Made by a program: the position numbers and the translations under genes
Notes under the pieces: generated by a model
What the model was told of the DNA's origin: nothing
Databases searched by the model: none
What the model saw: the letters and a program-made list of their open reading frames with translations, nothing else
In this document: positions 1 to 59,057 of the stretch, one piece after another
Numbering within the stretch: the first letter of the stretch is position 1
Layout of the letters: every line of letters begins with the position of its first letter
Assembly: GCA_002050435.1 (NCBI GenBank)
Contig: MWYV01000033.1
Coordinates: 1-64,000 of the forward strand
Direction: 5' to 3'
Source of the DNA: Chitinophagales bacterium 33-2
GTDB taxonomy: Bacteria; Bacteroidota; Bacteroidia; Chitinophagales; Chitinophagaceae
Length of the DNA stretch: 64,000 nt

Positions 1-123
1 CAAAGAAACTCCATTAGGTTAATGCAACTGCAAAATCTAAGGCCCGGTTTAAGTAATCATCAACAACGCCAGAACCATTGCGCGTTTCATCGAAATCAAA
101 TAAATTTCCCCGGACAACAGTGA
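1..123 (-). repeat. Partial copy of dispersed core repeat (M2 family), ending in CCGGACAACAGTGA
   Basis: Reverse complement matches 34025-34140 and 49758-49880; truncated by the window edge. Confidence 0.8.
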
Positions 124-3741: not shown

Positions 3742-5154
3742 ATGAAACGTAAAGCTTCACTGCTCGTGCTGGCTGCTGCCATGCTAATGAATCTTGATGC
3801 AACTGCTCAGATCAACGAAAATTTTGAACCAATAGGTTTACTTTCCCCGATTTCTTCTCTTGTAGGAGCCGGATGGCAATTTTCCGATGTCAACTGGAGT
3901 AATTCCAGCGTGATCACAAATACCGGAAGTGTTTACATCCTTCCTGCTACAAACGGCACTGTATATGGCTCAATAAATTCGCCTTTCCAACTGTTTTCCG
4001 GCAACCATACCCTGTCCTTTAAATACAAACTGGATAAAAAGCTGAGTACGAATGCTTCCAGGGGGATCAGCTTTGGTATTATGAATGCATTAGGACAGTT
4101 CACAGAAATATCAGTTGTTTCCTTGTCAAGTGCCGCTCCAGTAACCGTTCAAACTTTTACTTCAAACTTTACGGTTACACCTGGCATTTATCGTGCAGCC
4201 TTTAAAATGATGGGTTCGCAGGATGGCAATACTTATCTCTACATGGATGATATAAGTATTACCAATGTCATTACAAGTTATGCTTCCGGTGTAAATGGTA
4301 TTCCGGTTGCCGTTAATGATCAGTATGCGTCATTTGGTTCCATGCCCATTACCGGTAATGTGATCACAAATCCGCTGGGTCTTGACAGTGATCCTGACGG
4401 AGAAAAGATAACCGCCCTTGTGGTTACCCAGCCAGCGACAGGAACTTTAACGCTGTCTCCTGATGGATCTTTTACCTATACGCCACCGGTGGCCGGATTT
4501 GCTGGTGGATTGATCACTTTCACTTACAGTATTACAGATGATTCATTTACCCCTGCAACTTCAAATGTGGCTACAGTAACGTTAAGCTACCCCGCACAAA
4601 TCATATTACCTGTAAAACTGGTAAGCTTCACCGGGAGCCTTGAAAAAAATAATGTAAACCTCAGATGGACTGTAGAAGGAAATGAAACAGCATATGTTTT
4701 TGAAATAGAAAAAAGCATTGACGGGAGAAATTATACCAGGATCGCTACTGTAAATGCCACCTCAAAAGAAGGAAAAGAAAGTTATGCAACGCAATTGATG
4801 CAGGCGGATGGTAATGGCTATTACAGGATCAGGATCATTGAAACAGATAACACCATCAGCTATTCAAAATTCATCAGGTTTGCTGCAACAGGTAAAGACG
4901 CTGTGAGCTTGCAGTTACTCAATAACCCAGTAAAAAATGACCTGCGACTGAATTATGTTTCTGGACTTCAGGGCCAGGTACAGTTGCGTGTTTATACAGC
5001 TGGCGGGCAAATCGTAATTTCAGAAAAAGTTGCGTTTCATAAAGGTCAGAACGCATATACATTAAATGCTACAGCACAATTAGCTCCGGGCATGTACATC
5101 ATTGAACTGCTTAACGGAACAGAAAGAACCGCACAGAAATTTATTAAAGAATAA
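3742..5154 (+). CDS. Secreted protein with cadherin/Ig-like tandem domain and T9SS sorting domain
   Basis: DSDPDGEKITALVVTQPATGTLTLSPDGSFTYTPPVAGFAG motif; LPVKLVSFTGS linker; C-terminal GMYIIELLNGTERTAQKFIKE. Internal Met at 3742 starts a better signal peptide than the ORF start at 3649. Confidence 0.85.
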   Translation: MKRKASLLVLAAAMLMNLDATAQINENFEPIGLLSPISSLVGAGWQFSDVNWSNSSVITNTGSVYILPATNGTVYGSINSPFQLFSGNHTLSFKYKLDKKLSTNASRGISFGIMNALGQFTEISVVSLSSAAPVTVQTFTSNFTVTPGIYRAAFKMMGSQDGNTYLYMDDISITNVITSYASGVNGIPVAVNDQYASFGSMPITGNVITNPLGLDSDPDGEKITALVVTQPATGTLTLSPDGSFTYTPPVAGFAGGLITFTYSITDDSFTPATSNVATVTLSYPAQIILPVKLVSFTGSLEKNNVNLRWTVEGNETAYVFEIEKSIDGRNYTRIATVNATSKEGKESYATQLMQADGNGYYRIRIIETDNTISYSKFIRFAATGKDAVSLQLLNNPVKNDLRLNYVSGLQGQVQLRVYTAGGQIVISEKVAFHKGQNAYTLNATAQLAPGMYIIELLNGTERTAQKFIKE

Positions 5155-5174
5155 TGGTTGGATTTGCCTCAAAT

Positions 5175-5203
5175 AAAAAAGCTCCCCAAACGGAGCTTTT
5201 TTT
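5175..5203 (+). terminator. Rho-independent terminator
   Basis: AAAAAAGCTCCccaaacGGAGCTTTTTTT. Confidence 0.85.
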
Positions 5204-5224
5204 ATGCCTTGAAGATTATTTATT

Positions 5225-5394
5225 TCACTGTTGCCCGGTAAAAAATCAAACAAAATCAATTGAGCGATAGTGATTGAATCTCCTTCCAAACCAAATAAGG
5301 GGCTTCAAGTTTTTAAAAACACAACATCCTTCAAACCCACATTGAATTTCAGCGACTGGTTGGAGGAAATAAAACCTTTACCGGACAACAGTGA
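5225..5394. mobile_element. MITE-like element (M1) with terminal inverted repeats and 9-bp flanking duplication
   Basis: TIRs TCACTGTTGCCCGGTAAA (5225-5242) and TTTACCGGACAACAGTGA (5377-5394), 17/18 matching; flanks TTATTTATT at 5216-5224 and 5395-5403. Confidence 0.75.
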
Positions 5395-5679
5395 TTATTT
5401 ATTGATGTATTCCTGCAGTGATTTCACATAAACTTCAAATGCCTTGATACCCGGCTTTGTGATCCTGCAAATGGTTTGCGGGTAATTGTCCTTGAATTGT
5501 TTGATCACTTCAATATAACCTGCATCCTTAAGCTTTTGCACCTGCACGCTTAAGTTTCCTGCGGTAGCACCAGTCTTTTCTTTAATAAAAGTAAACTCTG
5601 CTTCCTTAACGCTGATCAGCAGGGAAACGATCGCAAGCCTTAGTTGTGAATGTAATATAGGGTCCAGGTCTTTAAACAC
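5395..5679 (-). CDS. Winged-helix transcriptional regulator
   Basis: LRLAIVSLLISVKEAEFTFIKEKTGATAGNLSVQVQKLKDAGYIEV winged-helix pattern. Confidence 0.8.
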   Translation of the reverse strand: MFKDLDPILHSQLRLAIVSLLISVKEAEFTFIKEKTGATAGNLSVQVQKLKDAGYIEVIKQFKDNYPQTICRITKPGIKAFEVYVKSLQEYINK

Positions 5680-15579: not shown

Positions 15580-15617
15580 ATATTGTTTAATTAAAAATTA
15601 AAAAGTTGAATTAGGAT

Positions 15618-15682
15618 GGTCAATAGTCAATGGTCAATGGTCAATGTTTCTTTAATTCACTATTCACTATTCACTATTCACA
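15618..15682. repeat. Heptamer arrays between atpA and atpH
   Basis: ggtcaatagtcaatggtcaatggtcaatg, then about four copies of TATTCAC. Confidence 0.9.
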
Positions 15683-16773: not shown

Positions 16774-16789
16774 AGTTTATTTTTCAAAA

Positions 16790-16817
16790 GTCAATAGTCA
16801 ATGGTGAATGGTCAATG
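16790..16817. repeat. Heptamer array between atpF and atpE
   Basis: gtcaatagtcaatggtgaatggtcaatg. Confidence 0.85.
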
Positions 16818-33889: not shown

Positions 33890-33910
33890 CTTTTCCAGGA
33901 TTACTATTTT

Positions 33911-33994
33911 TTTTTAAAACACAACATTTTTCAAGCCCACATTGACTTTCAGCGATTGATTGGAAGCTATAAAACTTTCTCCAGAAAACAGTGA
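33911..33994. repeat. Right half of the M1 MITE-like element
   Basis: TTTTTAAAACACAACATTTTTCAAGCCCACATTGACTTTCAGCGATTGATTGGAAG...CCAGAAAACAGTGA, parallels 5310-5394. Confidence 0.7.
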
Positions 33995-34024: not shown

Positions 34025-34474
34025 TCACTGTTGTCCAGGGAAATTTATTTGATTTCGATGAAACGCGAAATGGTTCTGGCGTTGTTGATGATTACTTCTA
34101 CCGGGCCTTAGATTTTGCAGTTGCAATAACCTAATGGAGTTTCTTTGTCGGAGAGCAGCGCTATGATAAATGCGGCTTCCACCTTTTTTCTTGAAAAAAA
34201 AGGTGGCCCCTCCTGCGCTTCGCTTCGGTGGGCAGGCAAAAATTCAAGCGCAATCAATGCGGAGCAGTCTGTTTTTACCAGATACTCTTCGGATGATTGC
34301 GCAAGGGAGCGCACCGAAAAATGAAAACAGGTGCAACTCCATGCGATCTGATTGTGCAAGCGTTCTTCGCGCTGTATTGCTCCACCTTAGGTATAAAGAT
34401 TTCTTAGGAAAAATCAGGAGCAATAAGGCGCACACAACCACCCAAATGTTATAAGATGATGTGCCTGGAATTTC
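34025..34474 (+). repeat. Composite dispersed repeat: M2 core, hairpin and stem-rich insert
   Basis: Starts TCACTGTTGTCC; 34069-34474 matches the reverse complement of 58550-58951. Confidence 0.85.
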
Positions 34475-49757: not shown

Positions 49758-49942
49758 TCACAGCTGTCCGGGGAAAGTTATTTGATTTCGATGAAACGCG
49801 CACTGGTTCTGGCGTTGTTGATGATTACTTAAACCAGGCCTTAGATTTTGAAGTTGCAATAACCTAATGGAGTTTCTTGCCGGACACCAGCGCTATGATA
49901 AATGCCTCTTCCACCTTTTTTCTTGAAAAAAAGTGGAAGAGG
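49758..49942 (+). repeat. M2 core copy ending in a hairpin, without the stem-rich insert
   Basis: TCACAGCTGTCCGG start; CCTCTTCCAC (49905-49914) and GTGGAAGAGG (49933-49942). Confidence 0.85.
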
Positions 49943-49991
49943 TTTTCCCTTAACAAATTCAAGGCGTTAAAGCCGAAATATACATTTGACA

Positions 49992-56565: not shown

Positions 56566-58254
56566 ATGATCAAACGCTACCTATCTTTCTTATTATTAAT
56601 TGTTTCTACTGTTGCTGCCGCTCAATCCTATCCTCAAAATTATTTCAGAAATCCTATGTCCATACCCATGGAACTGGTAGCGAATTTTGGGGAAATCAGG
56701 ACCAACCACTGGCACATGGGACTGGATATACGCACCCAACAACGCGAAAACCTTCCCGTACATGCTGCAGCTGAAGGTTATATCGCCAGGGTTTTGGTGG
56801 AACCTGGTGGTTTCGGACAGGCGATTTATATTCATCATCCCAACGGGCTCACAACATTGTATGCGCACATGAATGGCTTTTTTCCTGCCCTTGCCCAATA
56901 TGTAAAGCTACAACAATACGACCGGGAGTCATGGGCAGTGAATCTCTTTTTGCCCCCTGGAATGTTTGCTGTAAAAAAAGGTGATTTTATCGGCCGGAGC
57001 GGAAACACCGGTGGATCGGCGGGGCCCCATGTGCATTTTGAAATCCGCGATACCAAAACAGATAAGGTTTTAAATCCCCTGCTTTTTAATTTTCCTATAG
57101 CGGATGCCGTACCTCCCACTATTACAAGACTCGCCATGTACGACAGAAGCAGGTCAACCTATCACCAGGCACCCCAATTGCTCACCCTGAAAAGATCGGG
57201 GGGTGTACATACACTGGCAGCGGCATCCACTATTAAGGTAGGAACAAACCGAGTAAGTTTTGCGGTTGGAGCCACAGACAGGTTTTCAAAATCAACAAAT
57301 CCCAATGGCATTTATAGTGCACGAATCTCGCTTGATGGATCACCTGTTTCAGAATTTATTCTTGACAGCATCGATTATTTCGAAACACGTTATATGAATG
57401 CGCAGATTGATTATCCCTGGCGCGCAAGAGGAGGCTCTTTTGTGCAGCATGTAAGTGCACTTCCGGGTGCAGCACATATTGCCTACCAGTCTTTTAGTGA
57501 GGATGGAATTATTGTACTTCATGATGAAAAACTACATGCTGTGGTGATCGATGTAAAAGATGCAAAAAAGAATAATTCAAGAATTCAATTCAACATACAA
57601 TATGATCCATCGCTGGCCAGACCATACAATTTTCCTGCAGGTCAGCAATTTTTGCCTCATAATGTAAATGTTTTTGAAACCTCCGATTTTGAATTGTTTA
57701 CTTCTGAGAGAACGATGTATGACACCACTTATGTTACCTATACCAATAAACCCGGCACCGGAACCAATGTAGTTTCCCCTTTGCACCAGTTTTTAAGTGC
57801 AGCCATCCCTGTTCATGATTCTGTTGTTGTAAGAATAAAACCCGATCGCCAGCTCAGTGCAGAACAAATGGACAGGGTAATAGTAAAGCACGTTTCCGGC
57901 ACCAGAACAAATATTCAGAAAGCTCGCTGGCAAAACGGATGGATCAAAACCAGCTTTCGGCAGTTTGGTACCTACCAGGCAATTATAGATAATGAACCAC
58001 CCGTGATCAATGCACCACCCACCAATCTTTCTGCTGCACGTTCGATCATTTTTACTCCAACAGACAACCATAACGTGATCAAACGTTTCCGGGCGGAACT
58101 GAATGGAAAATGGCTGATGTTTACGAATGACAAAGGCAGGAGGTGGATCTATACTTTCGACGAACATTTTCCAAGAGGGAACCATGAACTGAAGGTGACC
58201 GTTGAGGACGAAGCGGGAAATCTAACAACACGCACATGGAATGTAAAAAGGTGA
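56566..58254 (+). CDS. M23 family metallopeptidase
   Basis: GEIRTNHWHMGLDIRTQ; GGFGQAIYIHHPNGLTTLYAHMNGF; GPHVHFEIRD. Confidence 0.93.
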   Translation: MIKRYLSFLLLIVSTVAAAQSYPQNYFRNPMSIPMELVANFGEIRTNHWHMGLDIRTQQRENLPVHAAAEGYIARVLVEPGGFGQAIYIHHPNGLTTLYAHMNGFFPALAQYVKLQQYDRESWAVNLFLPPGMFAVKKGDFIGRSGNTGGSAGPHVHFEIRDTKTDKVLNPLLFNFPIADAVPPTITRLAMYDRSRSTYHQAPQLLTLKRSGGVHTLAAASTIKVGTNRVSFAVGATDRFSKSTNPNGIYSARISLDGSPVSEFILDSIDYFETRYMNAQIDYPWRARGGSFVQHVSALPGAAHIAYQSFSEDGIIVLHDEKLHAVVIDVKDAKKNNSRIQFNIQYDPSLARPYNFPAGQQFLPHNVNVFETSDFELFTSERTMYDTTYVTYTNKPGTGTNVVSPLHQFLSAAIPVHDSVVVRIKPDRQLSAEQMDRVIVKHVSGTRTNIQKARWQNGWIKTSFRQFGTYQAIIDNEPPVINAPPTNLSAARSIIFTPTDNHNVIKRFRAELNGKWLMFTNDKGRRWIYTFDEHFPRGNHELKVTVEDEAGNLTTRTWNVKR

Positions 58255-58289
58255 TCTAGTGGTATGTTAAGAATAAAATGACGGTTTGA

Positions 58290-58332
58290 AGGGTGAATGG
58301 TCAATGGTCAATAGTCAATAGTCAATAGTCAA
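58290..58332. repeat. Heptamer array
   Basis: gggtgaatggtcaatggtcaatagtcaatagtcaatagtcaa. Confidence 0.9.
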
Positions 58333-58358
58333 TCACTGCTGTCCGGTAAAAATCAAAC
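58333..58358 (+). repeat. Left end of an M1-type element
   Basis: TCACTGCTGTCCGGTAAAAATCAAAC; compare 5225-5251. Confidence 0.7.
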
Positions 58359-58401
58359 ATCGCTTTTAGTTAAGCTAATTTGCCTCAGGCCGGCGGGCCT
58401 C

Positions 58402-58516
58402 GTACCTGCCCCGCTGCTGAATTCCAACAAAAAGGCCTCCCGCAGATTACGCAGATTTTCGCTGATTGGTTTTCTGCGTTCATCAGCGTAACCTGTGGGC
58501 AACAAGAGGCAGGTAC
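58402..58516. repeat. Cassette bounded by GTACCTGCC/GGCAGGTAC with CGCAGATT-type repeats
   Basis: GTACCTGCC 58402-58410, GGCAGGTAC 58508-58516; internal cgcagattacgcagattttcgctgattgg. Confidence 0.65.
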
Positions 58517-58549
58517 TGGTTCAAATAGATCCAGGTTTCCTCATAAAAT

Positions 58550-58951
58550 GAAATTCCAGGCCTAATCTTATAACATTTGGGTGGTTGTGTGCGCCTTATT
58601 GCTCCTGATTTTTCCTAAGAAATCTTTATACCTAAGGTGGAGCAATACAGCGCGAAGAACGCTTGCACAATCAGATCGCATGGAGTTGCACCTGTTTTCA
58701 TTTTTCGGTGCGCTCCCTTGCGCAATCATCCGAAGGTATCTGGTAAAAACAGACTGTTGCGCATTGATTGCGCTTGAATTTTTGCTTGCCCACCGAAGCG
58801 AAGCGCAGGGGGGGCCACCTTTTTTTTCAAGAAAAAAGGTGGAAGAGGCATTTATCATAGCGTTGCTGTCCGGCAAGAAACTCCATTAGGTTATTGCAAC
58901 TGCAAAATCTAAGGCCCGGTTTAAGTAATCATCAACAACGCCAGAACCATT
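58550..58951 (-). repeat. Inverted copy of the 34-kb composite repeat
   Basis: Near-identical reverse complement of 34069-34474. Confidence 0.88.
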
Positions 58952-59030
58952 CACCATTCACCATTGATTATTGACTATTGACTTTGACTATTGACCATTG
59001 ACCATTGACTTTGACCATTCACCCTTAACT
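58951..59030. repeat. Heptamer array (reverse orientation)
   Basis: caccattcaccattgattattgactattgactttgactattgaccattgaccattgactttgaccattcaccc. Confidence 0.9.
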
Positions 59031-59057
59031 TAACACTAGAATTGAATTTAAATCTCA

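Follow-up and report, generated by a model that had tools for sequence, protein, structure and literature searches.

A 170-bp MITE-like element with IS4-type ends at the stop codon of a regulator gene in a Chitinophagales bacterium

Is the DNA that follows the stop codon of a small regulator gene a transposed element and, if so, what kind of enzyme moved it? The initial annotation had described a MITE-like element of 170 bp at this place and had proposed mobilisation in trans. We analysed the locus within the window, that is, the whole 64-kb stretch of DNA, and compared it with the source draft genome and with the genomes of relatives.

Inverted ends and an exact target duplication

The features of the locus are as follows.

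5175..5203, no strand: bidirectional terminator-like hairpin AAAAAAGCTCCCCAAACGGAGCTTTTTTT (from the sequence; stem visible in the RNA fold)
5216..5224, no strand: left copy of the 9-bp target-site duplication TTATTTATT (exact match to 5395-5403)
5225..5242, plus strand: left 18-bp terminal inverted repeat TCACTGTTGCCCGGTAAA (direct reading; 64 related genome sites)
5225..5252, plus strand: left 'beta'-type end TCACTGYTGTCCGGTAAAAATCAAAC, common to many sister copies (blast against the own genome, query bases 1-28; census of end types)
5241..5251, plus strand: AAAAATCAAAC, found in the beta end and at the gamma inner edge, the presumed deletion junction (overlap of blast match groups; direct reading)
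5241..5394, plus strand: right 'gamma' module, about 20 copies at 82-96% identity (blast)
5377..5394, minus strand: right 18-bp terminal inverted repeat TTTACCGGACAACAGTGA (direct reading)
5395..5403, no strand: right copy of the duplication TTATTTATT, its first three bases being the regulator stop codon
5395..5679, minus strand: 94-aa winged-helix regulator (HTH_34), coding sequence intact (Pfam; orthologues in 16 congeneric genomes)

Direct reading confirms what had been described for this locus. The element measures 170 bp (5225-5394), its terminal inverted repeats are complementary at 17 of 18 positions, the flanking 9-bp copies are identical, and the TTA that opens the right copy is the minus-strand TAA of the regulator. 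Likewise, no ORF of note falls within the element; a 69-aa overlap (ORF 5080-5289) was rejected as spurious.

We scanned the whole window for 18-bp inverted repeats with at most one mismatch and arms no more than about 600 bp apart. The single repeat returned is formed by the ends of the 170-bp element, and it is the only one in the window with an abutting direct repeat of 8-10 bp. Across 50 simulated Markov-1 windows with the same dinucleotide make-up, nine inverted repeats occurred, none of them with an abutting duplication.

The ends belong to a modular repeat family

The genome-wide search for the 18-bp end suggested in the initial annotation proved productive: with no more than 3 mismatches allowed, TCACTGTTGTCCGGTAAA has 64 sites in the 3.0-Mb draft, whereas the reversed control has 2. 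The assembly (76 contigs, 90% complete) is broken within these repeats, and sister copies were read in stretches fetched around the end matches. Of the 73 end-like sequences around the fetched sites, 8 belong to none of the four subterminal types that we distinguish; the others are of the beta (27), alpha (21), gamma (11) and delta (6) types. The shortest element measures 62 bp and the longest about 660 bp, with the subterminal types mixed.

C21:61992-62654: alpha/beta sister, 663 bp, exact 8-bp duplication
C28:28538-29144: alpha/gamma sister, 607 bp, duplication matching at 7 of 8 bases
C33:17759-18061: gamma/beta sister, 303 bp, exact 8-bp duplication
C21:16782: beta/delta sister, 591 bp
Window positions 1-123, ~33900-33994, 34025-34460, 49758-49945 and 58333-58951: other members or fragments

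The 62-bp element at C22:17766-17827 consists of two recognisable TCACTG ends with almost nothing in between. C54:277 and C52:7829 are further copies next to a stop codon or at a TAA, which would fit an AT-rich target with AA at its end.

When the 663-bp sister was searched in 399 genomes of the bacterial family, the body of the element was found in the source genome only; matches in the other genomes are short inner stretches, chiefly the GCAGATTACGCAGATT repeat and a GGTGG hairpin. The 24-bp beta end has one match in 84,980 species genomes, a single end immediately past a stop codon in a Cyclobacteriaceae MAG (L180:1487-1512), with no partner end or transposase in its vicinity.

Target duplications at the other copies gave a divided answer. 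Exact abutting direct repeats of 8-10 bp flank 3 of 23 end pairs, namely the 170-bp element (9 bp) and the sisters at C21:61992 and C33:17759 (8 bp each). When the flanks were re-paired, a mean of 0.13 pairs had a duplication, and three were reached in 0 of 2000 shuffles. The initial annotation had named copies without duplications as evidence against transposition, and such copies do exist: the other 20 pairs have no exact 8-10 bp repeat. It also speaks against the reading that the duplication of the 170-bp element is 9 bp long and those of its sisters 8 bp. Many of the duplication-less copies are nested, truncated or within heptamer arrays. Elements with the same ends also occur in other genera, one of 479 bp with an exact 8-bp duplication (G052) and one of 144 bp with a 7-bp duplication (G029).

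The element is absent at the orthologous site in congeners

The regulator scores 100.7 bits against Pfam HTH_34 and has orthologues of 77-86% identity in 16 congeneric genomes. Downstream of the stop codon, all 16 lack the element. For the empty-site comparison proposed at the outset, the intergenic DNA of these congeners is too diverged to be aligned at single-base level. A regulator-locus allele without the element would read ...GAAGATTATTTATTGATG....

Many sister copies lie between inverted heptamer arrays

Sister copies at 58252-59045 of the window and at C53:10145-10742, C17:2607-3300 and C19:24474-25170 are flanked by heptamer arrays (GGTCAAT / TTGACCA) that are inverted relative to each other, several with outer arms that resemble CTAGTGnTAnGTTAAGAATAAAATGACG and CTTAACTTAACACTAG. 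A simple insertion into a single pre-existing array cannot give rise to this inverted layout. L199 (C26:26231) and L205 (C61:4437) have these outer arms and inverted heptamers but no TCACTG core, suggesting a separate foldback repeat family able to host the MITE at its centre. At L200 (C49) and L201 (C71:60230), arrays hold an identical short remnant TCACTGTACTTGCCT where the MITE would be, which could be the product of an extreme deletion or the trace of an excision. More heptamer arrays without the MITE core lie at 15616-15681 and 16783-16817 of the window.

These arrangements allow for another reading, in which the TCACTG elements would be a modular family with four freely recombining end types, many copies sitting centrally in a heptamer foldback (arms CTAGTGnTAnGTTAAG...CTTAACTTAACACTAG), and the two together would make up one composite mobile or amplifying unit. 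We consider this unlikely; what the MITE account does not fully explain is why many sister copies occur with inverted heptamer arrays.

IS4-family elements of relatives have similar ends

IS4-family elements with a DUF4372 transposase are found in relatives, with ends like those of the 170-bp element and duplications of 8-10 bp.

L142: ends CACTGTTGTCCGGGAAAA / CACTGCTGTCCGGTAAAA, similar, 8-10 bp duplication
L144 (congener G065): ends CACTATTGTCCGGTAAAAATCAA / CACTACTGTCCGGTAAAAATCAA (CACTRYTGTCCGGTAAAAATCAA), 9-bp duplication AGTCGGGAG
L145 and L160: ends CATTAGTGTCCGGTAAAA, similar, 8-10 bp duplications

L144 is a complete IS of about 1406 bp from the same genus, with the Pfam domains DDE_Tnp_1 and DUF4372; its transposase scores 217.5 bits against the NCBIfam IS4 family model and contains the YREK motif YYKKRWQIELLFKRIK. 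Its first 24 terminal bases are identical to the beta end at 23 positions. The exact GGTAAA form of the end is present in 2 of the 18 other species of the genus that were examined, in one of the two as a complete IS4-family element. Three contigs of congener G067 start with the same 100 bp, which finish in the family terminus, and these contig starts suggest a multicopy element with this terminus.

For the IS4Sa subgroup, De Palmenaer et al. (2008, PMC2266710) give ends of the form CA------T and 8-10 bp direct repeats. The 170-bp element fits such ends, reading CACTGTTGT from the second base of its repeat and having a 9-bp duplication; 5'-CA termini, a T at position 9 and duplications of 8-10 bp are common ground with the IS4Sa-like subgroup and L144. 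Whereas L144 is about 1.4 kb long and carries a transposase gene, the 170-bp element is gene-less and its interior is unrelated. The DDE transposase with the YREK motif is found in the putative parent, and the 170-bp element, having no gene, is not itself an IS.

In the source draft genome, no transposase with the ends of the 170-bp element (TCACTGYTGTCCGGTAAA) was found, so that the search for a matching IS succeeded among relatives only. Neither of its two IS4-like genes (C20, C3) has these ends. The C20 element (L044:1077-2383) has the ends CCACTAGCGTCCCGTTTA and a 9-bp duplication GTGATTGAC, its transposase is interrupted by one internal stop, and it has inserted next to a TCACTG-family member. 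Both the different ends (CCACTAGCGTCCC) and this position led us to reject its transposase as the mobiliser. The C3 copy is an open frame without the DUF4372 domain, and its ends were not found. The parent IS may have been lost, or may be absent from the draft assembly. The missing cognate would also suit a MITE of another transposase family whose ends resemble IS4 ends by chance, which we judge very improbable: the likeness to the congener's IS4 element reaches past the end itself, and the duplication lengths fit IS4.

The 170-bp element is very probably a MITE

We conclude that the 170-bp element is, with high probability, a non-autonomous MITE derived by deletion from an IS of the IS4 family (DUF4372-type) and inserted at the regulator stop by a transposase acting in trans. 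The matching ends, the 9-bp duplication, the 64 family sites and the absence after the regulator in 16 congeners together bear out the original MITE reading. By its ends, the mobilising enzyme would be IS4-like. Acting in trans, such a transposase would recognise TCACTGTTGTCCGG(T)AAA ends, and the element would insert into TTATTTATT at the regulator stop codon. Insertion copied the 9 bp, and the regulator coding sequence is therefore whole.

Bacterial MITEs in general are described as short, non-coding and multicopy, with terminal inverted repeats and a target duplication (review PMC10969869), and a P. gingivalis MITE with a minisatellite has also been described (PMC4596501). As in these descriptions, the 170-bp element is short, transposase-free and bounded by inverted ends and a duplication; its copies are multiple and dispersed, as the end matches and the roughly 20 gamma modules show, and its ends are common to autonomous elements by way of the IS4-family elements of relatives, one of them congeneric. 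Unlike in these descriptions, four interchangeable subterminal modules exist in one genome, and inverted heptamer arrays lie outside the ends of many copies, not inside. The kind is already known, an ordinary and well-documented bacterial MITE, and its parent family can now be named. It provides a clear case in a little-studied lineage, with the likely parent IS found in a congener, and shows how repeats can insert at the stop codons of a compact genome and leave its genes unbroken.

A deletion between short repeats may have produced the 170-bp form

When the element was compared by blast with its own genome, bases 1-28 matched beta ends and bases 15/17-170 matched the gamma module, the two groups overlapping in the 11-nt AAAAATCAAAC. 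Longer sisters (e.g. C33 and C28) have the same or near-identical words at both AAAAATCAAAC places, and the simplest origin is therefore a deletion of about 130 bp between short direct repeats. We infer that the 170-bp form would be a deletion derivative of a form of about 300 bp, joined within the two AAAAATCAAAC repeats. In this way gene-poor repeats may diversify, exchanging their ends and losing DNA between short repeats.

The element and the 3' RNA of the regulator

In congeners G065, G072 and G077, a terminator-like hairpin follows the regulator stop nearly immediately. The similar hairpin at 5175-5203, which is not among the calls of a simple terminator scan, now lies about 190 bp past the stop owing to the insertion; the comparison indicates that the element probably separated the regulator from its own terminator. 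The transcribed-strand RNA is predicted to fold into a 20-bp stem from the element ends, then the terminator (-73.9 kcal/mol), with a z of -4.8 against shuffles that applies to the whole stretch and is partly due to the terminator itself.

Both this fold and the location of the element, with the stop codon on one side and the terminator on the other, would be expected of an intergenic palindrome, REP/BIME-like or functional as RNA, that is retained for a role at mRNA 3' ends or in termination and is flanked by a coincidental repeat, but we give that explanation very little credence, as the predicted stem follows automatically from the terminal inverted repeats, copies of 62 to ~660 bp differ in their interiors, congeners do without the element at the regulator site, Rfam returns sub-threshold matches and no family at gathering score, and an exact 9-bp duplication, like those at sister copies, already disfavours it. 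Under the MITE reading, the 3' untranslated RNA of the regulator would now contain the predicted 20-bp stem, ahead of the original terminator.
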